Source: an uncultured Actinomycetes bacterium
GTDB taxonomy: Bacteria; Actinomycetota; Actinomycetes; Nanopelagicales; Nanopelagicaceae
NCBI GenBank assembly: GCA_903933585.1
Contig: CAIZKO010000058.1
Span: 1-47,155, forward strand
Reading direction: 5' to 3'
Length of the DNA stretch: 47,155 bases
Below the pieces are notes generated by a model. It was not told the origin of the DNA and ran no database searches. It saw only the letters and a program-made list of their open reading frames with translations. Shown here piece after piece: positions 12,293 to 33,309 of this stretch. The translations under genes and the position numbers were made by a program. The first letter of the stretch is position 1. Each line of letters starts with the position of its first letter.

Positions 12293-12306
12293 TGCAATCG
12301 ATTGCA
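12293..12306. promoter_or_regulatory. Putative LacI-family operator O1 (perfect 14-bp palindrome TGCAATCGATTGCA)
   Basis: Between the divergent 11314-12261 and LacI genes. On the minus strand it follows TTGACG (12336-12341)-N17-GATAAT (12313-12318). Confidence 0.8.
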
Positions 12307-12369
12307 GGCTTTATTATCAACGGTTTCAGGGCACTCGTCAAGGCATAATTTGAACTATAAGGTTACTTC

Positions 12370-13389
12370 ATGCGATCGCGAACCACCCTGGCTGATGTGG
12401 CGAAGCGGGCTGGGGTCAATGTCAGCACGGTCTCGCGCTCACTTAACCAGGAGACTGAGGGACAGGTCAGCAAAGCTACTGTTAAGAAGATCCGCAAAAT
12501 TGCGGATGAGATGGCCTACTCCCCAAATACCGTTGCGCGCGGGTTGCGAACGCGCAAATCCATGACGATCGGAGTTATCGTCCCTGATCTCACTAACCCG
12601 ATCTTCCCGCCGATTGTCCGCGGGGTCGACAGCATCCTATTTTCACGTGGGTACTCTGCCTTGGTAGTTAATACCGACAATAATGCTGAGATCGAAAATG
12701 CTCTCTTTGATTCCCTCATGGAGCGTCAGGTCGATGGTCTCATCATTGCAACTGGCCACACTGAGCGGAGCATGATTGCCAAATATCACAACCAAGGAGT
12801 CAAGGCTGTACTCGTAAATCGCGAAGCTTCCGGGGTTCCCTACCCCTCTGTCATTGGGGATGACGCTGCAGGTATTGCCGCCGCTCTAGAACATTTGGCT
12901 GCTCTCGGTCACAAGAAGGTTCTCCACCTCGCTGGGCCAACCGTCCTCTCCACCGCAAGCGTACGAAGCAACGCTTTTACAAATTCCGCCAAGCGTTTAG
13001 GACTCATCACGAAGGTGGTTAAAGCCACCGCACTTTCTGTCTCGGCGGGCGAGATCGCGATGAACAAATTTTTGGATGCTAACCCAAAGGGCGTAACAGC
13101 AGTCCTTGCTGGCAACGATCTGCTCGCGCTGGGGGTTTTTCATGCCCTGCGCAAACATGGTCTGCGCACCCCACAGGATATTTCGGTTATTGGTTTTAAC
13201 AATATGCCATTCTCGGAAGATTTTAACCCCTCGCTTACAACAGTCAGTGCGCCACACTTTGAGATGGGCGTGGAATCCGCTCGGTTGCTCATAAATCAGA
13301 TCGAAGGCAAGGTAACAAGCCCGAGAAAGATAACTCTCCCCGTAACTCTTGTGATACGAGAATCGTCAGGTCCGGTTCCCAAGAGATAG
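12370..13389 (+). CDS. LacI-family transcriptional regulator
   Basis: N-terminal HTH TTLADVAKRAGVNVSTVSRSLNQE, hinge SPNTVARGLRTRKS, periplasmic-binding-like domain IGVIVPDLTNPIFPPIVRGVD. Confidence 0.95.
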   Translation: MRSRTTLADVAKRAGVNVSTVSRSLNQETEGQVSKATVKKIRKIADEMAYSPNTVARGLRTRKSMTIGVIVPDLTNPIFPPIVRGVDSILFSRGYSALVVNTDNNAEIENALFDSLMERQVDGLIIATGHTERSMIAKYHNQGVKAVLVNREASGVPYPSVIGDDAAGIAAALEHLAALGHKKVLHLAGPTVLSTASVRSNAFTNSAKRLGLITKVVKATALSVSAGEIAMNKFLDANPKGVTAVLAGNDLLALGVFHALRKHGLRTPQDISVIGFNNMPFSEDFNPSLTTVSAPHFEMGVESARLLINQIEGKVTSPRKITLPVTLVIRESSGPVPKR

Positions 13390-13423
13390 TGACTTGTCCG
13401 CAAATACAGATTACTGTTTTGCG

Positions 13424-14476
13424 ATGAGAGATTCAGATATTCAATCGGCCATTGACCATTGGGCTCCTCGATTCACAACTCAGGGTGTTGACCCGAATGA
13501 CTTCCAACGCGTCACCTCAGCGCTAGAAAATTGGTCGCAATGGCTAGATGCCTGGGTCGCTAACGGTGATATGCATGCCGATCTAGCCGCGGAAGCAGAG
13601 CGGGCAGGACACAAAATAAGTGCGGGTAACGCTTGGAACCGCGCGGCCCTGAGCTACCACTTCGCAAAATTTGTCTGGGTTTTAGATATGTCAAAACATA
13701 AGTTTGCAACCGAGAAATCCATCGCAGCGTTGCTTCGTGCTCATAAGAACCTTGATCCCTCTGCCCGTCGTATTGAAATTCCTTTCGAAGGAGACCAATT
13801 AGTTGGAAATCTTCGGAGACCACAAGGAATTATTAATCCACCAGTGGTCATCTTGCTTCCTGGTTTAGATTCCACAAAAGAAGAATTTTTCAATTGGGAG
13901 AATGTCTTCTTAACTCGGGGCTTAGCGACTTTCTCGTTAGATGGGCCCGGTCAAGGAGAATCTGGATTCCATTTTTCACTTCGCCCTAATTACGAAAGCG
14001 CTATCAAGGTCGCTATCGATGAACTATTAACAATTAAAGAGATTGATGCAAGTCGTTTGGGTATTGTTGGTGTCAGCATGGGTGGCTACTACGCAGCACG
14101 CAGTGCGGCACACGATGCGCGCATCAAAGTTGCGGTAACGGTAGGTGGTTCGTACGACACAGGAAGTCGTTACGATGGGCGGCCGCCAATAAGTCGTGCC
14201 GCCTTTTATCAATATTCTGGCGCAAAGAGTGAAGATGAGGCACGAGCGATCGCAGACAGCATCACACTCGAGGGTTGTCTGCACAATCTTAAACAACCGC
14301 TCTTGGTTATCTTTGGGAAGAAAGATCGCCTGGTTCCGTATCAACATGCGGAGCGAGTAGTCGCGGAAGCCGGCAATGCAAAATTAGTCATGATCGAAGA
14401 TGGCAACCACGTTTGCAACAACTACCCATATCTGTACCATCCCTTAGCCGGTGACTGGATGGTCGATCATCTCTAG
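13424..14476 (+). CDS. alpha/beta hydrolase, DHPON-hydrolase/Ayg1-like (paralog 1)
   Basis: MRDSDIQSAIDHWAPRF... with nucleophile GVSMGG, acid GKKDRLVP, DGNH histidine. Start at ATG 13424 chosen by alignment to the paralog at 33323; the listed ORF starts with TTG at 13394. Confidence 0.85.
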   Translation: MRDSDIQSAIDHWAPRFTTQGVDPNDFQRVTSALENWSQWLDAWVANGDMHADLAAEAERAGHKISAGNAWNRAALSYHFAKFVWVLDMSKHKFATEKSIAALLRAHKNLDPSARRIEIPFEGDQLVGNLRRPQGIINPPVVILLPGLDSTKEEFFNWENVFLTRGLATFSLDGPGQGESGFHFSLRPNYESAIKVAIDELLTIKEIDASRLGIVGVSMGGYYAARSAAHDARIKVAVTVGGSYDTGSRYDGRPPISRAAFYQYSGAKSEDEARAIADSITLEGCLHNLKQPLLVIFGKKDRLVPYQHAERVVAEAGNAKLVMIEDGNHVCNNYPYLYHPLAGDWMVDHL

Positions 14477-14479
14477 ATT

Positions 14480-16222
14480 TTAGGAAGGAATTATTGGCAA
14501 TAAGATCGAAGATGGGAAGTCATTTCCCGTATAGAGAGTGACTCTATTTGCGAAGATTTCTGCGGGTCGGTCTAATTGATGATCATGTCTAAAAGGGCCA
14601 CTTCCCTTCATGATCCGCCCACCCATTTCTACAGGTTCTAAACCATGATCAAAATCGCACCCTTTTACAGTGAGCGCCAGTCGATAACCGGCTGGTAAAA
14701 GCAAACATGTCGCCCAGATTTCAATATCTAACTCGTAAATCTCCCCCGGAAGCAACGGTTCTTTCTTCATATGTGGATGAAAAGGAGCCCAAGGTTTTGT
14801 CTTTGCAGCATCTAGCGCGCGATGCGAAGCACGTAGCCAACCCTGAGACATAGGCGTCTTTGGATCGTTGGCTCCTTCGAAGAGAATCTCATCTCCTTCG
14901 GGGTTAAAAGCGCGCAAGGTAAGGAATAGATCAGCATCGGAGGTTGATGAAGAAATCCAGAGCTTTGCACTCACCGGGCCGGTAATTTCAGTCGCCTGGG
15001 GCATTGAAGCGCTATAAAAAGTTACACCTTCTCCCATCGCATCGTATGTGAAGCTCTGTTGCTGCTGCGGCACGGAATTATTAATAGATAAATTACTGAG
15101 TTCTAGGTACTGCCGACTCCACGCGGTGCGAGCGAGTGGCCATTCATTTTCACCGCGTAGTTTTACGGTTCCGTCCACCTGACGAATATTGAGTGAAACC
15201 GGTGGTTGCGTCTCCCAATCTCCCTCGCCTTTAAGAAAGTAATCGAAGAATCGTTTCTGCAATGAACGCCCGTACTCCGTATAGAACCCAGACCAATGAG
15301 TTCCATTATGTACCTCTAACCACTTCTTCGGTAAGCCAGTTGCGGCCCAGGCGTATAGATTCCCACGCTGATGATTTCCTAGACCGCCCCAATTCGCGGC
15401 CGAGAGAGTTGGAACTCGAATCTTCTCCGGTTGGCTGGAGTGTGAAAAATGCCATTCATCATCAAAGGGGTGTTCGATTATTTCTCGAGCGAGGTCGCAC
15501 CTATTGGCGAATAATTCTTCATCGGTTAAATCTTCGTCACCACAAGCCAGTAAACCACTCTCGGGATTGCGAAATCCCCGAGATCCCAGGCCATGCTGAA
15601 TTGTTGACATACGTTGATACCAATCGGGAAGGAAGGCGTTATGTATCCCGCCATGATGTGTCATGTCGCGGTAGTAGTCGTTTGCCCCTTCCCAGGGACA
15701 AATTGCCATCAAATGTGGGGGGTTAAGCTCCGCGACTTGCCACTGATTCTTTGCATAGTAAGAGATTCCGGCCAATCCGACTTTCTGGTTCGACCATTCC
15801 TGAGCGGCGATCCACTCGATACAATCGTAATAATCTTGCGCTTCTCGCTTGCTCCAGACATCAACGATGCCCGGTGATCTACCTGCCCCGCGTGAGTCCA
15901 CGCGAACGGTGGCATAGCCAAATGCGGTCCAATGCTCTGGGTCAACTAACTCCCAAGCCGCATATTTTCCGCTACTTCCGACCAAATCCTTGGGGAAGCG
16001 CGCGTTAAGGCGCTCCCATTGACGTGGATAACCTGCGGCGAAAGTTAGCCCTTTGGCGTAAGGGCCGTAGCTTGCGATAACAGGAAGTTTCTCTCCGTGA
16101 AGCGGGCGATAGACATCGGCACGCAGAATAAGACCATCATCCATCGTGATGGGTACATCCCAGTCGATGAACATGCCATCGCGTTCCTCTGATTTGAGCG
16201 CCCCAATAATTGGTTTCATCAC
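14480..16222 (-). CDS. CocE/NonD-family (X-Pro dipeptidyl-peptidase S15-like) hydrolase
   Basis: 580 aa; IDWDVPITMDDGLILRADVYRP, TVRVDSRGAGRSPG, GLAGISYYA nucleophile, C-terminal jelly-roll-like region. Confidence 0.88.
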   Translation of the reverse strand: MMKPIIGALKSEERDGMFIDWDVPITMDDGLILRADVYRPLHGEKLPVIASYGPYAKGLTFAAGYPRQWERLNARFPKDLVGSSGKYAAWELVDPEHWTAFGYATVRVDSRGAGRSPGIVDVWSKREAQDYYDCIEWIAAQEWSNQKVGLAGISYYAKNQWQVAELNPPHLMAICPWEGANDYYRDMTHHGGIHNAFLPDWYQRMSTIQHGLGSRGFRNPESGLLACGDEDLTDEELFANRCDLAREIIEHPFDDEWHFSHSSQPEKIRVPTLSAANWGGLGNHQRGNLYAWAATGLPKKWLEVHNGTHWSGFYTEYGRSLQKRFFDYFLKGEGDWETQPPVSLNIRQVDGTVKLRGENEWPLARTAWSRQYLELSNLSINNSVPQQQQSFTYDAMGEGVTFYSASMPQATEITGPVSAKLWISSSTSDADLFLTLRAFNPEGDEILFEGANDPKTPMSQGWLRASHRALDAAKTKPWAPFHPHMKKEPLLPGEIYELDIEIWATCLLLPAGYRLALTVKGCDFDHGLEPVEMGGRIMKGSGPFRHDHQLDRPAEIFANRVTLYTGNDFPSSILLPIIPS

Positions 16223-17616
16223 AGACCGCTCCCTTTGACTCGAATTGAGTCTCCCGCCTTCTGCGGGAGCCGCGCCGAACCTACAAATGCCATGAAGACT
16301 AGAAAAGCGAGAACGATGAATGCAAAGGTAAATTGATCGGCGTTGCCAAAGAGAGCTACACCCAACTTAAGGGCCAATACAGCAATCGCGACAGCAAAGA
16401 CCTGAGTGAGCTGCTGAATCATCGACGCCAAACTATTCGCTTGTTGCATTTTGGGTTGATCGATATCTGCAAAGGTGATCGTGTTGTAACAGGTATAGCC
16501 AAGAGATCGAACTGAGCCACTGAACAATAAGAGAATCCAGATGAGAATCAGTGGAGTTGACACTTTAAGAGCTGATATCAAAAGAATACTTACTCCGGAG
16601 AGGCTCGTGGCAATCATCAAAATGTGACGAAATGGCAGAATCTTGAGTAGTGGAGTTGTCAGGGGCTTAAAAAAGAAGTTGCCAAGAAAGAGGAAGAGAA
16701 CGGTGCTGCCAGCTCGCACCGGAGACCAACCAAATTTATCCTGAAACATTAATGGCATTAAAAAAGGAACCGCATTGATTCCGACTCTAAATGCAGCACC
16801 CGCAGTATTTGCAAATCTAAAGGTTCGTACATGTAACGCATCTAAACCAACCAAGGGGATTGGTACTTTAAACATATGGCGCACAGTGGGTATTCCAAGT
16901 CCTATGCCGGTAACAAGAAGCAGAGATGTTGCCAGAGTATTTACCTTTGGATTGCCAAGAGCGGCGGCACCAAAAACTAGACAGCCGAGCGAGATAGAAG
17001 CGCCTACAAACCCGGCCCAGTCAAGCTTTTGCGCGGTCGTGAGCGCGCCTTGAGGAATCAATTTAATTGCAAGAATTAGTTCGATCATCCCTATCGGAAG
17101 ATTAACGGCGAAGATCCAGGGCCAGGAAAGATGAGCGATGATTAGACCAGAGAGAGCAGGCGCGATAATCGGAGCTGTGAGCGCGGGCCAGGTTAGATAT
17201 GAAATTGCTCTTATCATGTGGGCTTTGTCAGTCGCTCGCAGAACTACCAATCGACCCACCGGGACCATCATCGCGCCACCAGCTCCTTGGATAACTCGCA
17301 TAAAAGTGAGTTCGGTCAGTGTTGTACTAATTGCGCACAGGAGTGATGCACCGGTAAAGATGATGATGCTAGTGAAGAGAACAGGTCTTGCTCCCCATTT
17401 TTCAACAAACCATGCGCTGACTGGAATCAGGACAACGACCGCCATTAAGTAGGCCGTCGCGCAGATACCTACCTGACCGGAGAGGATATGGAATTGGCGC
17501 GCAATTGTTGGGGCGGCCGTCGGAATAACTGCTGCATCCAAATTCTCCATAAAGAGCAGACCTGCAATTAAAAATGCTATTGGGCCAACTTCCCAGCGCT
17601 CGGAGCTTTTCTTCAC
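16219..17616 (-). CDS. MFS transporter (DHA2/EmrB-like)
   Basis: 465 aa; multiple TM; DAAVIPTAAPTIARQFHI, WPWIFAVNLPIG. 4-nt overlap with CocE-like CDS. Confidence 0.88.
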   Translation of the reverse strand: MKKSSERWEVGPIAFLIAGLLFMENLDAAVIPTAAPTIARQFHILSGQVGICATAYLMAVVVLIPVSAWFVEKWGARPVLFTSIIIFTGASLLCAISTTLTELTFMRVIQGAGGAMMVPVGRLVVLRATDKAHMIRAISYLTWPALTAPIIAPALSGLIIAHLSWPWIFAVNLPIGMIELILAIKLIPQGALTTAQKLDWAGFVGASISLGCLVFGAAALGNPKVNTLATSLLLVTGIGLGIPTVRHMFKVPIPLVGLDALHVRTFRFANTAGAAFRVGINAVPFLMPLMFQDKFGWSPVRAGSTVLFLFLGNFFFKPLTTPLLKILPFRHILMIATSLSGVSILLISALKVSTPLILIWILLLFSGSVRSLGYTCYNTITFADIDQPKMQQANSLASMIQQLTQVFAVAIAVLALKLGVALFGNADQFTFAFIVLAFLVFMAFVGSARLPQKAGDSIRVKGSGL

Positions 17617-18002
17617 AGCCCTGCCTTCGCCAATGCGCCCTGCAGAGAACGGCTATATGCGCTACTGGTAACGCTAGCTCCAGAGACAGCCTGGATCGAG
17701 GCCGAGTTCTCGCTAATGGCCTCTTTCCGCAGAATTGGCACGGAGACTCGAGCTAGAGTAATTGAACGCGTATCGGAATTCGGGAGCACTAAAGGAATAA
17801 CATCAATAATGCGGTGGTTCTTTACGACAACTTCGACCTGCAAACTACTGTAAATGGTCTTTATGACTGGACCTTTAAAAATTTGTACCCCGGTTATTGC
17901 AGACTTGGTCTTAGGGCTCTGCATCAGTCGGGCAAAGGCGAACCCAACCAGTGAAAATATGATGAGGCCGAAGAGTACAAATACCCCATATTTTCGCCGC
18001 AT
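17613..18002 (-). CDS. Membrane-anchored FMN-binding-domain protein
   Basis: N-terminal TM then GPVIKTIYSSLQVEVVVKNHRIIDVIPL...VSGASVTSSAYSRSLQGALAKAGL; SGASVT resembles the ApbE flavinylation motif. Confidence 0.8.
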   Translation of the reverse strand: MRRKYGVFVLFGLIIFSLVGFAFARLMQSPKTKSAITGVQIFKGPVIKTIYSSLQVEVVVKNHRIIDVIPLVLPNSDTRSITLARVSVPILRKEAISENSASIQAVSGASVTSSAYSRSLQGALAKAGL

Positions 18003-18974
18003 TTAAACCGCCAAGATAAATTTGCCAACGGCAGAACGTTGCTCAAAAATTTCATGCGCTTTTGACGCCTGTGCCAACGGAAAGACCTCGGTCACATCAA
18101 TTTTTATAGTTCCATCTTGAACTAATTCCACGGCGCGACGCAGACTCTCCGCCAGAATTTCAGGGCTGTGTTCAGAGAGTGAGCCATTGGAAATACCTAC
18201 AAATCCAATGCACCTGCTTCTCATCCAGAGCGCTGATGGCAACTCCTGCGGCGCTCGAGAGATATTGCTATACGAAACTAATCGACCAAATGGGGCGACG
18301 ATCTCGAGGGAACGTTTCTGCACAGATCCACCCACTGGATCTAACACAACACCTACTCCGCGGCCGTCGGTCAATTCCAACGCTCGTTCAGCAAAATTTT
18401 CATAGCTCATAAGTTCGTCATACCCATGTGCTTTTGCGTAACTCTCTTTAGATATGTCGCTGATAGTCCCGAAGAGGCGAGTGTCTGGAATCTTCTTGAT
18501 TAATTGTCCGACAATAGATCCCACCCCGCCAGATGCGGCGTGAAGCAAAATGGTCTCTCCGTGTCGCACCCGAGCCGCCCTTTCGACAACATTGAGGGCA
18601 AGAGGAACAGTCACAAGAACTCCAGCGGACTCCGGTTTTTGTGCAAAGCTCTCGGAGATCTTTTCGGTAAAGCGCTCGAGCGCAGTGACGTATTCGGCAT
18701 AGGCATGGCCACGAGTAAATGACGTTACAAAATCTCCCACCTTGAATTTGGTGCACTCAGCACCGACATCAACAACTTGGCCGCTTGCCTCTACGCCAAT
18801 GATCATGGGAACTTTCCCATCACCATCACCAACGCGATTTCGAATATCGGTGAAATTGACCCCAATAAAGGCGGTCTTAATCAAGATTTCATTGGCTTCC
18901 GGTTTTGGCATCGGGGCATCGGCGTACTCCAAGCACTCCGGACCACCGTAATTACTAATCACAACTGCCTTCAT
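18003..18974 (-). CDS. MDR-family NADPH:quinone oxidoreductase-like protein
   Basis: MKAVVISNYGGPECLEYADAPMPKPEANEILIKT, HAASGGVGSIVGQLIK. AAGGAGG-type RBS (minus-strand AAGGAGG) upstream. Confidence 0.88.
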   Translation of the reverse strand: MKAVVISNYGGPECLEYADAPMPKPEANEILIKTAFIGVNFTDIRNRVGDGDGKVPMIIGVEASGQVVDVGAECTKFKVGDFVTSFTRGHAYAEYVTALERFTEKISESFAQKPESAGVLVTVPLALNVVERAARVRHGETILLHAASGGVGSIVGQLIKKIPDTRLFGTISDISKESYAKAHGYDELMSYENFAERALELTDGRGVGVVLDPVGGSVQKRSLEIVAPFGRLVSYSNISRAPQELPSALWMRSRCIGFVGISNGSLSEHSPEILAESLRRAVELVQDGTIKIDVTEVFPLAQASKAHEIFEQRSAVGKFILAV

Positions 18975-19016: not shown

Positions 19017-19030
19017 TGCAATCGTTTGCT
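19017..19030. promoter_or_regulatory. Putative LacI-family operator O2 (TGCAATCGTTTGCT)
   Basis: 12/14 match to the O1 palindrome; between divergent 18974(-) and 19061(+) genes; lies within TTGAAT-N17-CAAAAT of the + gene. Confidence 0.65.
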
Positions 19031-19060: not shown

Positions 19061-20629
19061 ATGGAAGCAGATATTGTCGTCGCAGGAGCTGGCCATAACA
19101 GTCTTATTACTGCGTGCTACTTGGCCAAAGCTGGCTTTAGTACCGTGTTGCTTGACGCTCGTTCTATTCCCGGGGGTGGTGCCGCAACCGAAGAATTACT
19201 TGACCCTGGTTTCTTGATCGATACCTGCTCGACTGGCCACACCTTGATTCGTTCAAATCCCTTGTTGCTCAACGATGAACTTGGGCTAATAGGCAAGTAT
19301 GGACTCAAGTACTTTGAGCCAGATCCTGTCGCTCATGTGGCTTTTCCAGATGGAAAGCAGTTCACAATGTATCTCGATTTTGAGAAAACCATTGAAGAGA
19401 TAGCGCGGTTCAGCAAGAAAGATGCTGCTGCGTATCGCCGTATGTCTAAAGAGTACGACACAGTTAAAAGCATATTCACCGCAGCTAATTTTACTCCGGT
19501 TGGTTTTGGACCTTCGCTTGATCAACGTCTAGCTGAACATCCACAAGGAAAGATTTGGGCTCGTCGCCGTGCCATGAGCGCTTGGGACATTATCAAACTC
19601 GAATTCGAAGATAAGCATATTCAAGCCTTCATGCTCTGGATGGCATTCCAAACATTTGTCTGGTACGACCAACCTGGAACTGGAATGTTGGCATACTCCA
19701 TCTTTGCCCGCCAAGCGCGTAGTTGGTCTATCCCTGAAGGCGGTTCGGGACGATTGACTGCGGGACTGGTCGGTTTCCTCGAAGAACATGGTGGAAAAGT
19801 AATTTGCGACAAGGTCGTCTCCAACCTCATTATCGAAGATGGTCGTTGCGTTGGTGTGAAGACATCAGATGGAGATGAGTACCGGGCCAAGAAGGCGGTT
19901 CTATCAACGGTTCATATAAAACACCTCATCGATATGGCTCCAAAGGAGTTGTGGCCGGAAGAGTTCCACTTTGGAGTGGAAACGTACAACGTGGGAATCT
20001 CGGGATTTGCTGCATATTTCACAACGAAGAGCCCGCCGGTCTTTGATACAGAATTAGGCCCGCGCAGTGCAGTATCTGCGGGAGCAGTCGGTTGGCCTGA
20101 AGATATGTTGCAATTGAGCCTCGATATCAAGCTGGGCCGCCACATTACGAATGTACCTTGGATTTTGGTGGCAACCCCAACCCTGGTTGATCCCAACCGG
20201 GCACCTAATGGAGGCCATACGGTTAAATTTTTAAGTGCGCAAAGTTTTGCGCTTCCAGCTGGCTCTGCCGGTTGGGATGTCGTAAAACATGAAGTCGTGG
20301 ACCGTCAGTTGGCATACCTGCGACAATTCATGCCATCGTTTACCGATGACATCATTATTTCGCGCTACGTTAAATCTCCAGAAGATATATGGGCGACCAA
20401 TCGCCACATGATCAATGGGGCTTTCCATGGCGGCGACCGCGGGCCAGCATTCAGTGGTCCGAATCGTCCAGTTCCTGGATGGGCATCGCACCGTATGCCA
20501 ATACCTGGTTTGTATCAAACCGGTGGTACTACTCACCCTGGGGGATCAATTACCGGTGCGCCAGGACGTAACGCCGCGATCGTTATGTTGCAAGATCTGG
20601 GAGTAGATACCGCAGGAATTCTCTCCTAA
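19061..20629 (+). CDS. CrtI/phytoene-desaturase-like NAD(P)/FAD-dependent oxidoreductase
   Basis: MEADIVVAGAGHNSLITACYLAKAGFSTVLLDAR; C-terminal GLYQTGGTTHPGGSITGAPGRNAA. Start at 19061 preferred (AAAGGGG upstream); ORF start 19016 would translate the operator. Confidence 0.85.
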   Translation: MEADIVVAGAGHNSLITACYLAKAGFSTVLLDARSIPGGGAATEELLDPGFLIDTCSTGHTLIRSNPLLLNDELGLIGKYGLKYFEPDPVAHVAFPDGKQFTMYLDFEKTIEEIARFSKKDAAAYRRMSKEYDTVKSIFTAANFTPVGFGPSLDQRLAEHPQGKIWARRRAMSAWDIIKLEFEDKHIQAFMLWMAFQTFVWYDQPGTGMLAYSIFARQARSWSIPEGGSGRLTAGLVGFLEEHGGKVICDKVVSNLIIEDGRCVGVKTSDGDEYRAKKAVLSTVHIKHLIDMAPKELWPEEFHFGVETYNVGISGFAAYFTTKSPPVFDTELGPRSAVSAGAVGWPEDMLQLSLDIKLGRHITNVPWILVATPTLVDPNRAPNGGHTVKFLSAQSFALPAGSAGWDVVKHEVVDRQLAYLRQFMPSFTDDIIISRYVKSPEDIWATNRHMINGAFHGGDRGPAFSGPNRPVPGWASHRMPIPGLYQTGGTTHPGGSITGAPGRNAAIVMLQDLGVDTAGILS

Positions 20630-21588: not shown

Positions 21589-21597
21589 CTTTTCCCC

Positions 21598-23437: not shown

Positions 23438-23438
23438 C

Positions 23439-24188
23439 TTAATTAACCTCCGTCATATCTGTACCCAAGTACGCCTCAAGAACCGCTGGGTCATTGCGAA
23501 CAATCTCTGGTTTGCCTTCAAGAAGTGCGCTTCCCTGGTGCATAACCGAGACTTGATCGCAGATTCCCATGACGAATTCCATATCGTGTTCAACGATAAT
23601 AAATGTAACTCCGGTCTTGTTTAACTCCTTGATCCGTCCACCCAGGTGTTTTAACAAGGTGGGATTAACTCCACCGGCAGGCTCATCGAGCAACATAACC
23701 TTAGGTTCAGCCACCATGATGAAGGCAAACTCCAACAACTTTTGTTGGCCGTATGACAAGCTACCTGCTGGTTCGCGAGAAAGCTTGGTTAACCCAACGA
23801 AATCTAGACTTTCAAGTGCTCTTGCGCGTTCATCCGGTTGAGACCATTGACGCATCTGAGCAACAAGGCCCTTACGTTGTGCGGCAATATGAACGTTTTC
23901 AATCACGGTCAACCGAGGAAAAATCCTCGTCAACTGAAAGGTACGACCAATACCCGCCGCGAAAACTTCATCCGGTGTGGAGTTCGTTATGTCTTTACCT
24001 CTGAAAGTTACCTTGCCAGAGTCTGGAGTTTCATAACCTGTCATGACATTAAATAACGTGGTTTTGCCCGAACCGTTAGGCCCGATCAAACCATTAATGG
24101 CGCCCTCTTGGAAATTCATGGTGCAGTTCCTAAGAGCCTGAATTCCGCCGTAATTCTTAACTATGCCTTCTACTCCTAGAAGTGTCAT
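23439..24188 (-). CDS. livG: Branched-chain amino acid-type ABC transporter ATP-binding protein (LivG-like)
   Basis: GPNGSGKTT, LSYGQQK, LLDEPAGGVNP; IEHD-type EHDMEFVM. Confidence 0.85.
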   Translation of the reverse strand: MTLLGVEGIVKNYGGIQALRNCTMNFQEGAINGLIGPNGSGKTTLFNVMTGYETPDSGKVTFRGKDITNSTPDEVFAAGIGRTFQLTRIFPRLTVIENVHIAAQRKGLVAQMRQWSQPDERARALESLDFVGLTKLSREPAGSLSYGQQKLLEFAFIMVAEPKVMLLDEPAGGVNPTLLKHLGGRIKELNKTGVTFIIVEHDMEFVMGICDQVSVMHQGSALLEGKPEIVRNDPAVLEAYLGTDMTEVN

Positions 24189-25255
24189 TTGTGAGCACCC
24201 GCCTCTGCTGGACCCTCTAATTCGGAGTCAAGTATTCGTTGTTCCTTACGGACTACATGTGATCGCCATTTATCGGAAATTGCGGGAACCACACCGCCCG
24301 GTAGCAAGCGCAAAATCAGAATGAAGAGAGCTCCATATACGATCAGGAAGACGTTTGCTCCGCCAAATGTGATTAAGAAGTATTGCTGTGCGCCAGAGAT
24401 TATCAACGCTCCCAGCGATGGTCCCAAGATTGTTCCGAGTCCACCTGCGAAGGCCATGATCGAAAGTTCAAGGTCGAAGGCAGGATCGAAGGAGAATTGT
24501 GGGTAAACAGATCCAACAAACATTGCATACATGCAACCCGCGGCACCTAAGAAGATAGCCGAGATAACAAATGCTGTGAGCTTGGAATTTCTGGTGTTGA
24601 TTCCCAGGCTGCGCGCGCGATCTTCATCGTCGCGGATAGCCAACAAACTTAAACCGAACTTCGATCGGCGAATCATAAATGAGGTCACGATCGCGATTAT
24701 TGCCAAGAAGAGCCCCACATAATAGTAAGGAAGATTAAAGATCGATCCATCCCAAGGTGGTTGTGAAACCTCAAGACCCTGTGATCCACCAGTCCAACCC
24801 CGCAGGTTATAAGCGAAGAGTTGGAAGATAAACATCAGCGCGATAGTCAGAACAATAAAGGTGTGCTTACGAACCCGCAGCACAATTAACCCAATGGGGA
24901 TTGCCGCCAGGCCAGCCAGGAACATCGAAACTGGGATAAGAAGGAAGGTCTCCCACCCTGGTGGAATCTGCCAATACGAAGCAAGCATTGCAGTTGCATA
25001 CTGTCCAATGCCGAAGAAGACTGCGTGGCCCAGCGCGATATAGCCGGTATAGCCCGAGAAGATATTCCATCCGGTTACTGCCATTAAGAAAATCATGGCG
25101 AAGACACCAATGGTTGAAATGGTTGGGTTATTGAAAACCAGCGGGAAGATAACTAGCACCAAGAATCCCACGGTGAGCGCTCCATAACGAATCGCTTTTG
25201 GTACCTCGTAGGATGGTGGAGTCGGGCGCTGACTGATCGTCGTATCGGTACTCAC
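24185..25255 (-). CDS. livM: Branched-chain amino acid-type ABC permease (LivM-like)
   Basis: YIALGHAVFFGIGQYATAML, SKFGLSLLAIRDDEDRARSLGINTRNSKLTAFVISA. Confidence 0.85.
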   Translation of the reverse strand: MSTDTTISQRPTPPSYEVPKAIRYGALTVGFLVLVIFPLVFNNPTISTIGVFAMIFLMAVTGWNIFSGYTGYIALGHAVFFGIGQYATAMLASYWQIPPGWETFLLIPVSMFLAGLAAIPIGLIVLRVRKHTFIVLTIALMFIFQLFAYNLRGWTGGSQGLEVSQPPWDGSIFNLPYYYVGLFLAIIAIVTSFMIRRSKFGLSLLAIRDDEDRARSLGINTRNSKLTAFVISAIFLGAAGCMYAMFVGSVYPQFSFDPAFDLELSIMAFAGGLGTILGPSLGALIISGAQQYFLITFGGANVFLIVYGALFILILRLLPGGVVPAISDKWRSHVVRKEQRILDSELEGPAEAGAHK

Positions 25256-26124
25256 TGAGCTCGTACTCCCTTTTTACCAAATAGACCCTGAGGTCTAACC
25301 AATAGGACCAACATCAAAATCATGTAGAAAGCTGTTGAACCCCAGACTGGAGACCAGACAACTGCGACCACATCTTGAATCACCAACATGAAGATGGCCG
25401 CGACTAGTGCACCACCTACGCTGCCAAAGCCGCCCAAAATCACGATCACTAAGAGTCGAGAAATAATGTCGTACGAACTAGATGCATTGAACGCATTGGT
25501 TGTTCCAAAGATCATTCCACCGATTGCAGCAAGACCGATACCTATGCCCAAGGTAATCATGGAGACTCGATCGGTATCGATTCCAACTAGACGAGCAGCA
25601 ACCGGGTTTTGCATTGAAGCGCGCAATGAACGTCCGAATTTGGTGCGATAGGTAACTAAGTATAAACAACTGAGTAAAAATGCACTCAGCAAGAAGGAGA
25701 GGACATAAATCAACGGAAAATTGAGTTTTCCGATACGTAGCGAATTGTTGATGTACGAAGCATGGATCTGTACAAAACCACTGTTATAACAAATATCCAG
25801 TATGCCTTCAATCAAAGTGGCAACTGCAAACATTGTCAGAAGCGACATCACGACTTTATTTGTCTTAATCGGCTTAATGAGGAAAACATAAATGAACATG
25901 CCCAAAGCGGTCATCAAAGGAGTCGTGAAGATCAACGACACAAATGGATCTATATGGAAATGTGTAGTAATTGAGTAGCTGAGATAAGCGCCTAAAACAA
26001 TGAGAGCGCCGATTGCAAAATTCACGATATCCATTACGCCAAAGACCAGGGTAAGTCCTGCCGCCATCAAGGCGTAAAATCCGCCGACGAGCACTCCTTC
26101 AATAATTGCCTGTAAAACTAACAC
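25252..26124 (-). CDS. livH: Branched-chain amino acid-type ABC permease (LivH-like)
   Basis: IEGVLVGGFYALMAAGLTLVFGVMDIVNFAIGALIVLGAY; FGRSLRASMQNPVAARLVGIDT. Confidence 0.87.
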   Translation of the reverse strand: MLVLQAIIEGVLVGGFYALMAAGLTLVFGVMDIVNFAIGALIVLGAYLSYSITTHFHIDPFVSLIFTTPLMTALGMFIYVFLIKPIKTNKVVMSLLTMFAVATLIEGILDICYNSGFVQIHASYINNSLRIGKLNFPLIYVLSFLLSAFLLSCLYLVTYRTKFGRSLRASMQNPVAARLVGIDTDRVSMITLGIGIGLAAIGGMIFGTTNAFNASSSYDIISRLLVIVILGGFGSVGGALVAAIFMLVIQDVVAVVWSPVWGSTAFYMILMLVLLVRPQGLFGKKGVRAQ

Positions 26125-26165
26125 GCTAGTACGCCTCCCAATGTTGGTATCTCGCTATTTAGTAA

Positions 26166-26195
26166 AACAGGGCGGACTTTAGAGCCCGCCCTGTT
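26166..26195 (-). terminator. Intrinsic terminator/attenuator between the solute-binding-protein gene and livH
   Basis: Minus strand AACAGGGCGG-GCTCTAAAGT-CCGCCCTGTT followed by TT: 10-bp perfect stem with 3' TTTTACT tract. Confidence 0.8.
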
Positions 26196-26209
26196 CCGGC
26201 AATTACTAC

Positions 26210-27466
26210 TTACATGCCTGGTGTAGTTCCCCAAGCCGGACGTAGCGTCTCGATTGGTGAAACCTTGTCAGGACCTCCTAGAGGCAATACAGGAACATAT
26301 TGACCCTTCTGCCATTGGAAGACATAAGGAGCGGCACCAGAATTCTCGCCATCTGGCGCGAACTGAACTGGACCTTGAACACTCGTGAACTTAGCTCCAG
26401 AGTGTAAATATGCCTGCAATTTAACATTGCTGGTGGAACCAACCTTGTTAACTGCTTGTGCAAGAACCTGTCCTGCAGCAAATGCCTCTGGCACGTCGGC
26501 ATTAATTGCGTTGATATCTCCACCATAGGTCTTGATATAAAGAGCAACCATGTCCTTGTTACCAGGGTAGTTCGATGTTGGAATCCACGTATTTGGAACC
26601 ATGATTCCTTCAGTGTTAGTAATACCCACGCTCTTGGTGAAATCAGCGCCCTGATCGGGACCTGAAGCCAGGATGAGCTGTTCTGGGTTGTACTTAGCCT
26701 GAATGAAGTTTTGGATCATTGAATAACCATCAGGTGGCATCGTTCCCAAAATCGCGATCTTTGCACCTGAAGCGGCTACAGCCGATGCGATAGGTGAGAA
26801 GTCTGTTGTCTCGGCTGGGTACACCTTGTAGACGGCGTCAGTGAAGCCCTTCTTATCAAGGTATGCCTTTGCGAAGTCCACCATTGGTTGAATAAATGGA
26901 TCATCCATCGTTGCGTATGCAATTGGCTGTGGCTTCTGTGTTGCAGCCAACCACTTTGCATATGTAACAAGCTGATACGTTGCTGATGCAGAAACGTCAA
27001 AGACGTTCTTCAGGCCACGTGAGAAGACGGATGGTCCGCCGCCGATACCTTCGAGCATTACATAGTGATAACGATTTGCAATGTCAGAGGCTGGCTTGGT
27101 CAACTTGGTTGAGTAGGGTCCGAGGACGAAATCAACCTTGTCGGATGTAATAAATTTTTGATAGTTGGTTACAACTTGTGTTGGACTTGAGGCATCTGAC
27201 AAGAACTTCAAGACGACTGGACGTCCCAGAATTCCGCCGTGCGCGTTCTGCCAGGTGGCCCAAATTTTGTAACCTTGCTGGGTTGCTTTTCCGTCACCGG
27301 AGAAGTCGCCAGATAGTGAAACTGAGATACCGATTGTGATCGGCTTTGGAGCGGCCGTCGCGTTAGGGACTGCAAGCCCCGTAACAGCTAATGCCACAGC
27401 GCTAAGAGCCGCGCCGAGTTGAACTTTGTGTCGGCTGGCTACGCTGCCGAACCTAGAAATGTGCAT
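26210..27466 (-). CDS. ABC transporter substrate-binding protein, branched-chain amino acid family (Peripla_BP_6-like)
   Basis: Signal peptide AALSAVALAVTGLAVPNATAA then PITIGISVSLSGDFSGDGKATQQGYKIWATWQNAHGGILGRPV. Confidence 0.88.
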   Translation of the reverse strand: MHISRFGSVASRHKVQLGAALSAVALAVTGLAVPNATAAPKPITIGISVSLSGDFSGDGKATQQGYKIWATWQNAHGGILGRPVVLKFLSDASSPTQVVTNYQKFITSDKVDFVLGPYSTKLTKPASDIANRYHYVMLEGIGGGPSVFSRGLKNVFDVSASATYQLVTYAKWLAATQKPQPIAYATMDDPFIQPMVDFAKAYLDKKGFTDAVYKVYPAETTDFSPIASAVAASGAKIAILGTMPPDGYSMIQNFIQAKYNPEQLILASGPDQGADFTKSVGITNTEGIMVPNTWIPTSNYPGNKDMVALYIKTYGGDINAINADVPEAFAAGQVLAQAVNKVGSTSNVKLQAYLHSGAKFTSVQGPVQFAPDGENSGAAPYVFQWQKGQYVPVLPLGGPDKVSPIETLRPAWGTTPGM

Positions 27467-27509: not shown

Positions 27510-27523
27510 CGCAATCGTTTGCA
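27510..27523. promoter_or_regulatory. Putative LacI-family operator O3 (CGCAATCGTTTGCA)
   Basis: 12/14 match to palindrome; about 43 nt upstream of the transporter operon start. Minus-strand promoter TTGACT (27549-27554)-N17-TAACTT (27526-27531) directly precedes it. Confidence 0.75.
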
Positions 27524-27593
27524 GAAAGTTATACCCGTCATCTACCTAAGTCAATGGATTTCTCTCTTTTTAATTACAACGTTTTGGTTGCGC

Positions 27594-28652
27594 TTATAGG
27601 AGGACGATGGGGCGGATTACCTGCTTAGACTCCAGCGCTGCGAAGGCCTCATCGATCTGATCCAGGCTGTATTGGAAGGTGGTGAGGGGTTCGGTCTTTA
27701 TAGCGCCTGAAGCCATCAGCGCAATGGTCGCCGGGTAGCAATTTGGGCTGGATCGGACTCCTAAGAGGTCAATCTCATCCAGTGCGAGCAGGTCGATCGG
27801 TAGCGTCGCTGTTTTCCCCCCGGTCAAACCCAGCATGGCGATCTTGCCGCCGCGGCGAGTTGAGCGGAAAAGTTGTTCGACAACGGCTGGGTTGCCGCTG
27901 CAGTCGAAGACGTAATCAACCCCACGTCCATTGGTCATGCGCCTAATTTCTACTATTGGATCGCTCTTTTCATAATCTACGACCGCATCACAACCGAGTT
28001 CTAACGCTGTTTCGAGCCTGGCCCCACGGCCCACAACGATCACTTGGGTAGCCCCTGCAGCGCGAGCCACCTGCAGCATTAAGAGTCCAAGCAAGCCTGG
28101 GCCAAAAACGGCGACGGTCGAACCTGGACGGATATCTGCTCGTCGTCCAGCGTGCACGGTCAGCGCGGCTTGATTTACCAGCGCCCCTGCAAGGTCGGAG
28201 ACTGAATCGGGAATCTTATGAACGGCTACCGCAGGACGAGCTGCAAATTCTGCAAGTGCACCCGGTGCAGTATGCCCATACAACTTAAATCCAGGATCGC
28301 GGACTCGTTCACAGAGGTTGTAACGCCCCTGGCGACACATCGGACAAGCAGAGCATCCTGCATGGTTCTCTGCAACGACTCTATCCCCGACTGCGAGACC
28401 ACTTTTTTCAGTGCCTGCTCCCAGCTTTACAATGGTCCCGGACCATTCATGCCCCAAGATGAAGGGCATGCTCGGAGGCCACGTTCCCTTGAATCCGCCG
28501 TTGACGATCTTCAAATCGGTGCCACACATTCCACAGGCATTTACCCGGCAAAGAACTTCGCCGTATTCAAGATCCGGAATAGGAACATCCACGACAGAGA
28601 GCGAACCAAAATCGGCTAAAACTGCGGCCCGCATGGTCTTTGCGTCAGTCAT
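27594..28652 (-). CDS. Zinc-dependent MDR alcohol dehydrogenase
   Basis: CGMCGTDLKIV, GHEWSGTI, CSACPMCRQGRYNLCE structural-zinc cysteines. Start at ATG 28652 forms a TAATG overlap with the upstream stop. Confidence 0.88.
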   Translation of the reverse strand: MTDAKTMRAAVLADFGSLSVVDVPIPDLEYGEVLCRVNACGMCGTDLKIVNGGFKGTWPPSMPFILGHEWSGTIVKLGAGTEKSGLAVGDRVVAENHAGCSACPMCRQGRYNLCERVRDPGFKLYGHTAPGALAEFAARPAVAVHKIPDSVSDLAGALVNQAALTVHAGRRADIRPGSTVAVFGPGLLGLLMLQVARAAGATQVIVVGRGARLETALELGCDAVVDYEKSDPIVEIRRMTNGRGVDYVFDCSGNPAVVEQLFRSTRRGGKIAMLGLTGGKTATLPIDLLALDEIDLLGVRSSPNCYPATIALMASGAIKTEPLTTFQYSLDQIDEAFAALESKQVIRPIVLL

Positions 28653-29422
28653 TAGTGTGAAACCTTTCCTAGTGCATCCCAAACTTCCTTTGCCCGGCGG
28701 ACAATGTGATCTGCCACTTCTTCGGCAATCTCTTCAGAACGTGCCACGGTGGCTGTCTCTGGGTGGCCATACCAACCCGTCGGCGCAACATCATGGAAAT
28801 CTCGCATGATTGGATAAACATCGCGGCGGCGGAATAGCTCGTGGGCTTCATCGCCCGCTTCCCGATCACTTGGTTCGGCCAGACTTTCCAGGTGCACCAA
28901 TGAAGCGTCATAAGCAAGCACTGCAGAAGTTTCCATTGCCCCCGAGTGGGTAAATTCCATTTCATCGGGATGGAGCGAATTTGTGATGATATGAGATTCT
29001 CCTACAACAACTTGAACTCCATGAACCATTTGTGCCCGGTCCGCTGCAATACGCATCGTTGCAGAGTTTCCTTCGTGCCAATTGACAACCAAGATCCGAT
29101 GAGCGCCGGCGCCCTTGAGACCTTCACAGATATCAACAAATACATTAATCATGGTTTCAGGCTTTAAAGTCAACGACCCTGCCCAACCGCCGTGATAGTG
29201 CGCTATCCCGACAGAACCCAGTGTTACAACAATTGTGTCTAATCGTTCTGCAACTCGCTCACCGATCGATAGCGCAGCAAAAAGATCTGTCCCTAGCGGA
29301 AGGTGACTTCCATGTTGTTCGATGCTTCCAGCAACAACAACGGCGATCCCACTCTTCTTCATTAGTTCGGCAGCAACCGGCTGCGAAATTCTCTCGAGCT
29401 GACGTTCTGGGTGACGTGGCAT
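28652..29422 (-). CDS. Creatininase-family amidohydrolase
   Basis: VVAGSIEQHGSHLPLGTDLFAA metal-binding signature; NWHEGNSATMR. Confidence 0.87.
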   Translation of the reverse strand: MPRHPERQLERISQPVAAELMKKSGIAVVVAGSIEQHGSHLPLGTDLFAALSIGERVAERLDTIVVTLGSVGIAHYHGGWAGSLTLKPETMINVFVDICEGLKGAGAHRILVVNWHEGNSATMRIAADRAQMVHGVQVVVGESHIITNSLHPDEMEFTHSGAMETSAVLAYDASLVHLESLAEPSDREAGDEAHELFRRRDVYPIMRDFHDVAPTGWYGHPETATVARSEEIAEEVADHIVRRAKEVWDALGKVSH

Positions 29423-29426
29423 TTAT

Positions 29427-31184
29427 TTACCCTCCGTATCCGGTTGACTTCTTATTAGCCAACGCAACTTTGTGACCAGTAACCGGCGTAGTCCATGTTT
29501 CAGTAACTACATCCAGCAAACTAGGTTTAGTACTTGTGAGAACTCGCTTCATTGCCGCGGATAAATCTCCAGGATTTGTGACTCTCTCTGCTTCGAAGCC
29601 AAAGCCTTGAGCAACAGCGCTGAAATTGATGTCGGCAAAATCGCTGCCTTGATCACTAGTGCCGAAGTTCAAATGACCATACCAACGAATCCAGCCCAGG
29701 TCTGCGTTATTTAGGACGATGACGGTTATCGGCAAATTTAACTCAAGGATGCTGGCAAATTCCCCTATGGAATATCCGAGCGCACCATCTCCCGTTAGGA
29801 CAATTGTTCGCTTGCCTGGATTGGCGATAGCTACTCCGATTGCTGCGGGTACTGAATAACCAAGCCCTGCTAGTCCTCTTGGCATAAATACTTTTTTGCC
29901 CGGTAGGACTTGCTCGTAGTACACACCCGCCCAACCACTCGATAAGCTGGCATCGCAAACGATCAAGTCATCTTGGCGAAGTTGTGCTTGAAGTTCACCG
30001 AGTACGCGTTGCGGCAAAATCGGAGTTACATCACTACTTCGTTCAGCAGCGCGCACCGCGCTCCACTCGCTCTTGAATTTCATAATTTCGATTTTCCATT
30101 CAGGGCGTTCCACCTTTGCGGTGGCCTGCGCAAGTGCCCGCAAGCCACTTCGTGCATCGGCAAAAATTCCTGTTACATTCTCAAAGGAACGACCAATTTC
30201 GGCAGGATCGATATCGATCTGAATAATTTTCTGATTTTTTCTGGGAAGAGACCAAGCAAAGGTCGGTCCGCTACCCGCTTTAGTCCCAAGAAATACAACC
30301 ACATCTGCAGACTCAAGAGCAGCGCGTGCTGCTGGAGTTCCCATTTGTCCGACAACGCCAACAGCCATTGAATGATTCTCGGCAATGACTCCTTTACCGG
30401 AGAGCGATGTTGCTATTGCACACACCTGGGTATCGGCAAATTCTGCTATTTCTGCAATTGCACCTGAGATAAGTGCGCCACCGCCAGCGATAATCAACGG
30501 CCGCTTTGCAGCGTTAAAGATTTGAGCAGCCGTTAGTACGTCATCCGGATCAGGTGCCGTACGGAAAGCCGGAAAACTCCCGAAGCGAGAGATCGCTGAC
30601 TTCGGCTGCAAGAGTTCCAACATCTCCGGTGGCAGTTTCGAGTCAAGAATATCTTGCGGTAAAAAGAGAACTGTCGGGCCGGGACGTCCAGTGGTGGCTT
30701 GCTGGAAAGCTTGGCGAACCAGGGCTGGCATTGCTTGCAAACTAGGGACGGTGGCGTACCACTTTGAGACCGGTGCTAAGAGATTTACTTGATCCATAGC
30801 CTGTGATGCGGCCGAACGATATTGATGCAGCGTTAAATTCGCGGGGAGAGCACTCACGAGCGCCACAATAGGAATTGATGCGCCAAGTGCTTCGCCTAAT
30901 CCAGCGGGCAGATTCGCAGCTCCTGGTCCCACGGTTGCATCGCATACCCCGACTTTGCCAGTAGCTCGTGCATATCCATCAGCTGCATATACACCGGTCC
31001 GCTCATCACGAACTAACACGTGGCTTATTTCAGAGCGTTGGTCGATGCCGTCGTAAAGTGCATAGGTTTGACCGCCTGGAAGTCCAAAAACATATTCAAC
31101 GCCGTGCTCAACCAGTAATGCCGTGAGCAGCGCGCCACCATGTGAATGATTAATCTCCACGTTCCGACGCTCCTCGTTATGCAA
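29427..31184 (-). CDS. Thiamine-pyrophosphate-dependent enzyme (acetolactate synthase/benzoylformate decarboxylase superfamily)
   Basis: VEYVFGLPGGQTYALYDGI, DERTGVYAADGYARATGKVGVCDATVGPGAANL, TGDGALGYSIGEFASILELNLPITVIVLNN. Confidence 0.88.
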   Translation of the reverse strand: MHNEERRNVEINHSHGGALLTALLVEHGVEYVFGLPGGQTYALYDGIDQRSEISHVLVRDERTGVYAADGYARATGKVGVCDATVGPGAANLPAGLGEALGASIPIVALVSALPANLTLHQYRSAASQAMDQVNLLAPVSKWYATVPSLQAMPALVRQAFQQATTGRPGPTVLFLPQDILDSKLPPEMLELLQPKSAISRFGSFPAFRTAPDPDDVLTAAQIFNAAKRPLIIAGGGALISGAIAEIAEFADTQVCAIATSLSGKGVIAENHSMAVGVVGQMGTPAARAALESADVVVFLGTKAGSGPTFAWSLPRKNQKIIQIDIDPAEIGRSFENVTGIFADARSGLRALAQATAKVERPEWKIEIMKFKSEWSAVRAAERSSDVTPILPQRVLGELQAQLRQDDLIVCDASLSSGWAGVYYEQVLPGKKVFMPRGLAGLGYSVPAAIGVAIANPGKRTIVLTGDGALGYSIGEFASILELNLPITVIVLNNADLGWIRWYGHLNFGTSDQGSDFADINFSAVAQGFGFEAERVTNPGDLSAAMKRVLTSTKPSLLDVVTETWTTPVTGHKVALANKKSTGYGG

Positions 31185-31193
31185 TCGATTGCG
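31180..31193. promoter_or_regulatory. Putative LacI-family operator O4 (TGCAATCGATTGCG)
   Basis: 13/14 match; minus-strand promoter TTGACT (31219-31224)-N16-TAAACT (31197-31202) immediately precedes it. The listed TPP-enzyme start (31184) overlaps the operator; a downstream start (e.g. the V/M of VEINHSHGG region) may be the real one. Confidence 0.8.
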
Positions 31194-31228
31194 CTTAGTT
31201 TAGAGGGGAATGCACCTAAGTCAAGGTT

Positions 31229-31870
31229 TTACTCAAAATTAACGGTGAGCGGTGGGAAATTTCCCAGCCGATATTCAAGGTGATCACCTGGCTTTAGAGC
31301 GATCGGTGGGACTATCGACCCGACGATAAGGAATTCACCGCTTTTAATGCCTCCCGAGAGTTCGCCCACAACGTCGACCCCGTGAGTCACGATTGTTGGC
31401 AACGCGCCTATCAACTCCTCGAGCTCGGAGACAACAACTTCTCGGCCGTCGGGCATCAGGATTTGAGCCACCAGCCCACGTATATCCCCGCCAGATCGAG
31501 AGCCATCCCGAGCACCCAAGATGTAATTCCGCTGAAAAATATCGCTCGCTAAAATTCGAGTGGGGTCAGTTGGTGTGAAATCAAGATCAGCTAACTCAAT
31601 TGCTGGACCGATTGCGGTCACTGAATCCATTACAAATTTTTCACTTGCTCCCGAAGGAATATTCCGTCCGAAGTAGATCGCAACTTCTGTTTCTCCGACA
31701 GGTCTGACCCACTCCTTGATATCAACAGCTGCTCCGTTTGGAAGGTTGCGCTCCTCGAGTAGATAACCCACCAATGGTGCATCAAGTTCTAAATTGGATA
31801 GTCCAGTTGGAGAGCCAAAACCTAACTTCCAGCCAACTTGTTTATTGCGAGCACCTAAGTCAAGAATCAT
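31229..31870 (-). CDS. Fumarylacetoacetate hydrolase/2-oxopent-4-enoate hydratase family protein (N-terminus uncertain)
   Basis: VGWKLGFGSPTGLSNLELDAPLVGYLLEERNL, EVAIYFGRNIPSG, AIELADLDF. Homologous-looking codons continue upstream of the ATG (NWREDPRLTSGYAALKSK). Confidence 0.8.
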   Translation of the reverse strand: MILDLGARNKQVGWKLGFGSPTGLSNLELDAPLVGYLLEERNLPNGAAVDIKEWVRPVGETEVAIYFGRNIPSGASEKFVMDSVTAIGPAIELADLDFTPTDPTRILASDIFQRNYILGARDGSRSGGDIRGLVAQILMPDGREVVVSELEELIGALPTIVTHGVDVVGELSGGIKSGEFLIVGSIVPPIALKPGDHLEYRLGNFPPLTVNFE

Positions 31871-31922
31871 TTTACTTTTAAGTGCGGCATACCCCGATGT
31901 GAGTCGGGGATCTTCCCGCCAA

Positions 31923-32336
31923 TTACTGGTGATGATTGTCGCGATCCGCTTCGTAGCCGGAATCTTCTAACGAACCAGCACCGCTCCACCCCCACGCAAG
32001 AACGGCGTCGTGTTCGGAGGTATTTTTAAATCCATGCCAGTGACCTCTAGGAATCAAAACAAAGTCACCTTTATGGGCAGGTCTCTCGCCATCATTTGTA
32101 TACATGATGCCTTCACCTTCAACTACGATCCAAAATTCTTCACAATTAGCATGCTTGTGACGATCGTGCATGGCACCCGGGGGCATGACTGTCCAACCAA
32201 CTAGCAAATTATCAGAACCAGCCTTCGCCTTGTCGATAGCAAACTGCACTTGCATATTGACCCAACCTTCATCCCGGCGTAGACCTTCGACAATCGGAAC
32301 ATCCTTGAGGTTTGCAACATATAGATCTGGTTTCAT
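31923..32336 (-). CDS. Cupin-domain protein
   Basis: MPPGAMHDRHKHANCEEFWIVVEGEGIMYTNDGERPAHKGDFVLIPRGHWHGFKNTSE: conserved cupin motifs 1 and 2. Confidence 0.88.
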   Translation of the reverse strand: MKPDLYVANLKDVPIVEGLRRDEGWVNMQVQFAIDKAKAGSDNLLVGWTVMPPGAMHDRHKHANCEEFWIVVEGEGIMYTNDGERPAHKGDFVLIPRGHWHGFKNTSEHDAVLAWGWSGAGSLEDSGYEADRDNHHQ

Positions 32337-33220
32337 GACGTAATTCCTCCCATGCGTAGATAAGCTTTATGTGCAACAACAAAGTCTTGATGGCCTAACC
32401 CCATCCCGCGGCAAATATTCATAATGTCGTTTGCTGACGAAGCAATCGGGAGCGCCATGCTTAATCTACGTCCCTGTTCGAGAACCAAAGTCATATCTTT
32501 CTGCTGAACCGCGACATCCGCTAAAGGTTTAGCAGGCATCTTGCCTTCCAAGATAAATGGCCCTCGATACCCCAAGACCGGTGAAGCAGCAACGCTATTG
32601 AGAATCGCATTCACCATCACCTTTCGATTGACCCCACCTTTCTCTGCAAGAGCAACCGCTTCACCAAATGCAATGACCTCAATCATGAGAAGAGAATTTA
32701 TGGAAAGTTTCGCTTGAGTTGCCAAACCGCTAGTTCCGATATACGTCGCTTTAGCTCCAATATCGAGCAGAACTTTTTCAATCCGGGGAAAAACATCTTC
32801 ATCTCCTCCAACCATGAGGGATGCCTTTCCCTGTTCAATCGTTACTGGACTTCCAGATATTGGCGCATCAACCATCGTCTTGCCTGCAGATTTGAAAGCT
32901 GAGTGAACTTCGCGGCTCACTTCGGGTTCAATGGTGCTCATATCTAAGTAGATCGCTTCGTTTGATATCCCATGAATTACCCCGTCGGTACCCAAGGCGA
33001 TCTCTTTAACGGCAGCGCTGTTAGTAACTATCGAAAATACAAAGTCGGAGTTCCGTGCTACTGACGCGGGGTTCTCCCCGACCTTCATTCCTAGCGCCTT
33101 GAGATCCTGGTCTTTGCCGGGGGATCGATTCCACCCAGTAACTTCATGACCAGCGGCGATTAATCGCGGAATAATTACCTGGCCCATATCGCCAAGTCCT
33201 AGAAATCCAATGTGTGCCAT
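32333..33220 (-). CDS. NAD(P)-dependent oxidoreductase, 3-hydroxyisobutyrate dehydrogenase family (second copy)
   Basis: MAHIGFLGLGDMGQVIIPRLIAAGHEVTGWNRSP; KLSINSLLMIE. ATG at 33220 starts the Rossmann motif; the listed ORF start 33310 would span the operator. Confidence 0.87.
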   Translation of the reverse strand: MAHIGFLGLGDMGQVIIPRLIAAGHEVTGWNRSPGKDQDLKALGMKVGENPASVARNSDFVFSIVTNSAAVKEIALGTDGVIHGISNEAIYLDMSTIEPEVSREVHSAFKSAGKTMVDAPISGSPVTIEQGKASLMVGGDEDVFPRIEKVLLDIGAKATYIGTSGLATQAKLSINSLLMIEVIAFGEAVALAEKGGVNRKVMVNAILNSVAASPVLGYRGPFILEGKMPAKPLADVAVQQKDMTLVLEQGRRLSMALPIASSANDIMNICRGMGLGHQDFVVAHKAYLRMGGITS

Positions 33221-33295
33221 TGCGGGAACATAACAGGGTAATTCCCGGCTGAATAGGTCTTCCCTATTACGAGAAAATCGTATAAATTCCAACTC

Positions 33296-33309
33296 CGCAA
33301 TCGATTGCA
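33296..33309. promoter_or_regulatory. Putative LacI-family operator O5 (CGCAATCGATTGCA)
   Basis: 13/14 match; between divergent 33220(-) and 33323(+) genes. Confidence 0.78.

Follow-up and report, generated by a model that had tools for sequence, protein, structure and literature searches.

The window, a stretch of 47,155 nt from an uncultured Actinomycetes bacterium, very probably harbors a local regulon of a LacI-family repressor acting at five promoter regions. It represents contig 58 of a 1.53 Mb genome assembled in 135 contigs (92.6% completeness). The regulated set consists of about 26 genes and ends with the hydrolase gene terminating at 34393; operons and their boundaries are predicted from gene spacing and strand (Table 1). 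A sequence-only reading of the same DNA had proposed about 25 genes, from the SSADH gene at 5892 to the hydrolase gene at 33323; our recount slightly corrects the gene number and places the end of the set at 34393.

Table 1. Candidate operators, promoters, and genes of the predicted regulon (window coordinates; promoters are inferred).
Feature	Coordinates	Strand	Sequence or domains	Comment
Operator S1	12293..12306		TGCAATCGATTGCA	between LacI and GlxR1 operon
Operator S2	19017..19030		TGCAATCGTTTGCT	between QOR and amine oxidase genes
Operator S3	27510..27523		CGCAATCGTTTGCA	upstream of LivK
Operator S4	31180..31193		TGCAATCGATTGCG	upstream of ThDP enzyme
Operator S5	33296..33309		CGCAATCGATTGCA	between GlxR2 and FrsA3
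GlxR1 operon promoter	12313..12341	-	TTGACG-17-GATAAT	by consensus and conservation
Promoter-like, before LivK	27528..27554	-	TTGACT-15-TATAAC	S3 just downstream
Promoter-like	31197..31224	-	TTGACT-16-TAAACT	S4 just downstream
GlxR1, M24 peptidase-like, VOC, fused E1 alpha-beta, SSADH-like operon	5892..12261	-		S1; order kept in relatives
LacI-family regulator, 339 aa	12370..13389	+	PF00356, PF00532, PF13377
FrsA-like hydrolase (FrsA1)	13394..14476	+		S1, other side; follows LacI in the same direction
QOR, FMN-binding, MFS, CocE-like hydrolase operon	14480..18974	-		S2; order conserved
FAD-dependent amine-oxidase-like gene	19061..20629	+		S2
LivKHMGF importer, FrsA-like hydrolase (FrsA2), DHDPS-family gene	20626..27466	-		S3
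ThDP enzyme, creatininase-family, Zn-ADH operon	27594..31160	-		S4
GlxR2, cupin, hydratase-like operon	31229..33220	-		likely S5
FrsA-like hydrolase (FrsA3)	33323..34393	+		S5

All five 14-bp palindromes claimed by the sequence-only reading are present exactly at their claimed positions. Operators of the LacI family are even palindromes with a central CG, mostly located 30–140 bp upstream of start codons (PMC4052901), and the consensus observed here, TGCAA(T/A)CGATTGC(A/G), has the same even form with a central CG at the target promoters. The PWM built from the five sites and their orthologues was scanned over the window, yielding scores of 25.6, 23.6, 23.6, 22.1, and 21.0 bits for the five sites, and 11.3 bits for the next-best match, which lies inside an ORF; as this PWM was trained on the same five sites, the gap demonstrates separation rather than independent significance. 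What makes the sites at 19017 and 33296 appear intragenic is nothing more than alternative start codons further upstream; translation likely begins at 19061 for the amine oxidase, 33220 for GlxR2, and 33323 for the hydrolase. The earlier statement that copies occur only at operon heads or in divergent intergenic regions needs a small correction: S4 is situated between two genes of the same strand and thus heads an internal transcription unit.

The genome-wide scans were pattern searches. With at most one mismatch, TGCAATCGATTGCA occurs at three places in the genome, all of them in the window; with at most two mismatches, the count rises to 20, including five in the window, and ten of the 15 outside places were fetched, all falling within ORFs of at least 232 codons. 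The refined motif HGCAAWCGATTGCD, no mismatches allowed, has six matches, namely the five window promoters and one position (C116:4376) inside a 572-aa ORF. If the LacI-upstream site is taken as a fixed seed, four of the 19 other places fall in the 21-kb span (binomial P ~1.2e-4). The copies examined outside the window were rejected as sites, all being located inside ORFs. This bears out the sequence-only reading, which expected the matches to concentrate in this island and named frequent occurrence in unrelated promoters as the observation that would speak against it.

Within the genus, orthologues of the regulator were observed in genomes G029 (95% identity), G001 (94%), G011 (82%), G026 (66%), and G007 (62%); the publicly available close relatives are MAGs labeled “uncultured actinobacterium,” and the organism might, as a guess, belong to the freshwater acI lineage. 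The sites, their positions, their conservation, and their co-inheritance with the regulator are computational findings. In G011 the island is found on one contig, with five out of five sites at matching promoters. G029 and G001 have three sites each, at every assembled orthologous promoter, and the missing sites correspond to contig ends. The expected conservation upstream of orthologous operons was observed. S1 is retained in seven orthologous loci, with two mismatches in the copy from locus L020, and S2 is conserved in G001 and G011. G007 and G026 have a smaller set, in which LacI is accompanied by the GlxR1 operon and a less similar LIV transporter operon (38–54% identical), and both promoters have an operator. 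On a G007 contig (C74, loci L058–L060), the 13.4–38.7 kb island of the window is absent, and a different LIV operon with the same operator follows LacI, so that there seem to be two versions of the regulon, one small and one expanded.

Between the window and G011, the 14-bp sites are identical at 68 of 70 positions (97%), compared to 251 of 417 (60%) in other intergenic DNA (Fisher P 8e-12), and among 32 genomes of the genus, two to five sites were found in the six genomes with the orthologue and zero to two in the 26 genomes without it (Mann–Whitney P 1.5e-5), although, as the genomes are related, these P values overstate independence. The predicted co-occurrence of the sites with the LacI orthologue is therefore seen in the genus, and it extends to homologues across the class.

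In the class survey of 395 genomes, a LacI homologue (E of 1e-75 or better) was found in 18. At least four copies of the core RCAAWCGWTTGY are present in 14 of these 18 and in six of the 377 other genomes (counted by hand; Fisher P 5e-18). In class genomes, mostly GC-rich, the core often adjoins LacI, LivK, GlxR1, a CMD-family gene, or the hyp2 relative, and CAAWCGWTTG, the core of the operator, is repeatedly seen adjacent to LacI, a LIV-type ABC transporter, and a GlxR-M24 operon. G044 has its LacI locus (C50) and its GlxR1-M24 locus (C12) on separate contigs, each with a site. An M24 protein of at least 70% identity is present in nine of 60 relatives, and all nine have the LacI homologue. 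In the tree, where the whole set of close homologues is marked as motif carriers, the motif-carrying regulators group together (support 98/97), with a long-branched regulator from G021, lacking the motif, inside the group. In loci L069 and L071, for instance, the core lies within the locus outside the 500 bp upstream of LacI, and in L080 it is detected upstream of LacI only in its relaxed form. The regulator belongs to a supported clade spanning Actinomycetes, with alphaproteobacterial homologues, and, going further than the sequence-only reading, the unit of regulator, operator, and transporter is conserved far beyond this island. A contig binned as Tardiphaga (L020) encodes LacI and M24 proteins 59% and 83% identical to those of the window and has several operator-like sites; it may reflect transfer or mis-binning.

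A genome search identified the gene at 12370–13389 as the only one encoding a LacI-type HTH in the host genome. Its product combines the N-terminal LacI HTH domain (PF00356) with a periplasmic-binding-protein-like ligand domain (58.7 and 123.5 bits, both above the cut-offs). The hinge, ARGLRT, contains the intercalating Leu and is retained across the clade, so both features that had been said to fit LacI-family recognition, this Leu and the central CpG, are present, as judged by sequence. Compared to CcpA, and also to most other LacI-type proteins in related genomes, regulators of this clade are two residues longer in the stretch that joins the recognition helix to the following one. Identification as RbsR, CytR, CcpA, or UriR was rejected, all scores being under the curated NCBIfam cut-offs (e.g., 250 of 382 bits for RbsR and 186 of 442 for CcpA), and no named LacI equivalog matched in NCBIfam reached its curated cut-off.

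The importer is of the LIV/HAAT type and the enzymes are not typical of sugar use; as a set, the regulated genes do not resemble a sugar-degrading pathway. The nearest solved relative of FrsA3 is a C–C hydrolase, 2,6-dihydroxy-pseudo-oxynicotine hydrolase (2jbw, 1.6e-38), and the ThDP enzyme is acetolactate-synthase-like, below the named cut-offs. Searches of NCBIfam, PDB sequences, annotated plasmid neighborhoods, and papers yielded only loose substrate hints, that is, the DHPON-hydrolase-like C–C hydrolase and sub-cut-off IolM/IolN-like, creatininase-like, and DddP-like matches, and no nameable pathway. Further downstream, the protein encoded at 35913–36821 has a sub-threshold NMT1-like match (E 0.17) and no operator of its own in the window; its relatives adjoin LacI or LivK in many distant actinomycetes. 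At 42579–44612, beside topA and holB, thymidylate kinase carries a fused MFS-transporter-like domain, an arrangement retained in G011, G007, and other relatives.

Repression by LacI-type proteins involves a repressor site over the transcription start. S1 starts 6 nt after the –10 box of the GlxR1 promoter, in which TTGAC and most of the –10 box are conserved in all eight aligned orthologous promoters; at S3 and S4 the operator is 3–4 nt beyond the –10-like hexamer, and at S3 the TTGAC is conserved in seven out of seven aligned regions, the –10 box less so. Location of the operator directly after the TTGAC/–10 pair at these three sites points to repression, the arrangement being, as we infer, the one known for LacI-type repressors. 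S2 falls within the weak –35/–10 spacer of the amine oxidase gene, S5 lies about 10 nt past a TATAAA on the hydrolase side, and both promoters match the consensus poorly. LacI itself and GlxR2 are less certain targets, as their likely promoters lie downstream of the site.

Thus, a dimer of the 12370–13389 protein very probably binds the 14-bp palindrome at the five promoter regions, and the bound dimer would block RNA polymerase, as the operator either spans the start of transcription or sits between the –35 and –10 boxes. Release of the repressor would be brought about by a small molecule, the likeliest candidates being the imported compound and an early product of its breakdown. The derepression would jointly switch on about 26 genes, encoding the LIV-type ABC importer, hydrolases, dehydrogenases, the ThDP enzyme, and the oxoacid-dehydrogenase E1, perhaps together with the regulator itself, and these enzymes may serve a single pathway.

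The same protein could act at the same sites as an activator or a dual regulator. Activation is conceivable at LacI and GlxR2, given the upstream position of the site, but at S1, S3, and S4 the operators are downstream of a good –35/–10 pair, where an activator would obstruct transcription, and we consider this variant improbable. It is still less probable that some other transcription factor recognizes the palindrome, the LacI gene being only a neighbor. Five genomes (G311, G118, G036, G039, G390) do contain four to six copies of the 12-bp core with no detected orthologue of this LacI, hence the motif is not absolutely specific, and another regulator may use a similar operator there. On the other side, the operator adjoins LacI in every orthologue of at least 58% identity, most LacI paralogues with identity below 41% have no such motif alongside, the motif and LacI co-occur in both the genus and the class, and the palindrome has the LacI-type form (PMC4052901).

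Chance palindrome matches, as an explanation of the five near-copies, have a negligible probability. The number of window matches with at most three mismatches, nine compared to 3.65 expected from shuffled sequences, is only a moderate excess, because this threshold is loose; the PWM gap and the genome-wide scarcity speak against chance, and conservation at five orthologous promoters refutes it. Overall, scarcity of the sites, their conservation, and co-occurrence with LacI give good support to a local LacI-family regulon with predicted binding at all five sites, as the sequence-only reading had suggested.

Like the regulons described by Ravcheev et al. 2014 (PMC4052901), the predicted regulon has a LacI regulator of a single domain architecture, an even palindrome with central CG, sites at promoters, and a site beside the regulator gene. 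It differs from them in size and content: 93% of the collected local LacI regulons have 20 or fewer genes, and sugar use is the content of 96% of the catalogued LacI groups (PMC4052901), whereas about 26 genes is unusually large for a local LacI regulon and the content does not look like that of sugar use. RbsR, CytR, UriR, and CcpA share the domain architecture and are the best NCBIfam matches, but the window regulator scores below their cut-offs. IpsA of Corynebacterium is likewise an actinobacterial LacI-type regulator with a palindromic operator; its effector is myo-inositol and its targets are cell-wall lipid genes (PMC3899939).

Plasmid-encoded homologues of the regulator, 41–44% identical, are present in Ensifer adhaerens, Shinella sp. 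HZN7, and Streptomyces sp. YIM 121038. The Ensifer (L123) and Shinella (L125) megaplasmids have TGCAATCGATTGC-type palindromes beside LacI, a LIV-type transporter, and a FrsA-like hydrolase; the Streptomyces plasmid encodes relatives of GlxR, M24, VOC, the E1 fusion, and SSADH, with no core motif near LacI. The gene sets of these plasmids differ from that of the window, and a literature search on their regulators found no experimental work. The operator TGCAATCGATTGCA was found in no paper searched (RegPrecise and most subscription journals being outside the search), and none of the papers containing shorter operator cores is, by title and abstract, about LacI regulation.

The regulon is of a known kind, with an apparently undescribed regulator group and a probably non-sugar substrate. 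On balance, we favor the view that the regulator defines a widespread and so far undescribed orthologous group of LacI-family proteins, spread over Actinomycetes and with homologues in alphaproteobacteria, with a DNA-binding domain longer by two residues and the core CAAWCGWTTG, controlling LIV-type import and breakdown of a probably non-sugar compound via the conserved GlxR-M24-VOC-E1-SSADH and FrsA-hydrolase set. The operator provides a handle on a catabolic pathway recurring in many bacteria, as it indicates that the site-bearing genes belong together, and the purified repressor could be used to screen for the inducer. As predicted regulons go, it is unusually clean, and it comes from a small-genome actinobacterium with environmental MAGs as its near relatives. 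It is also likely to exemplify a LacI-type regulator governing something other than sugar use.
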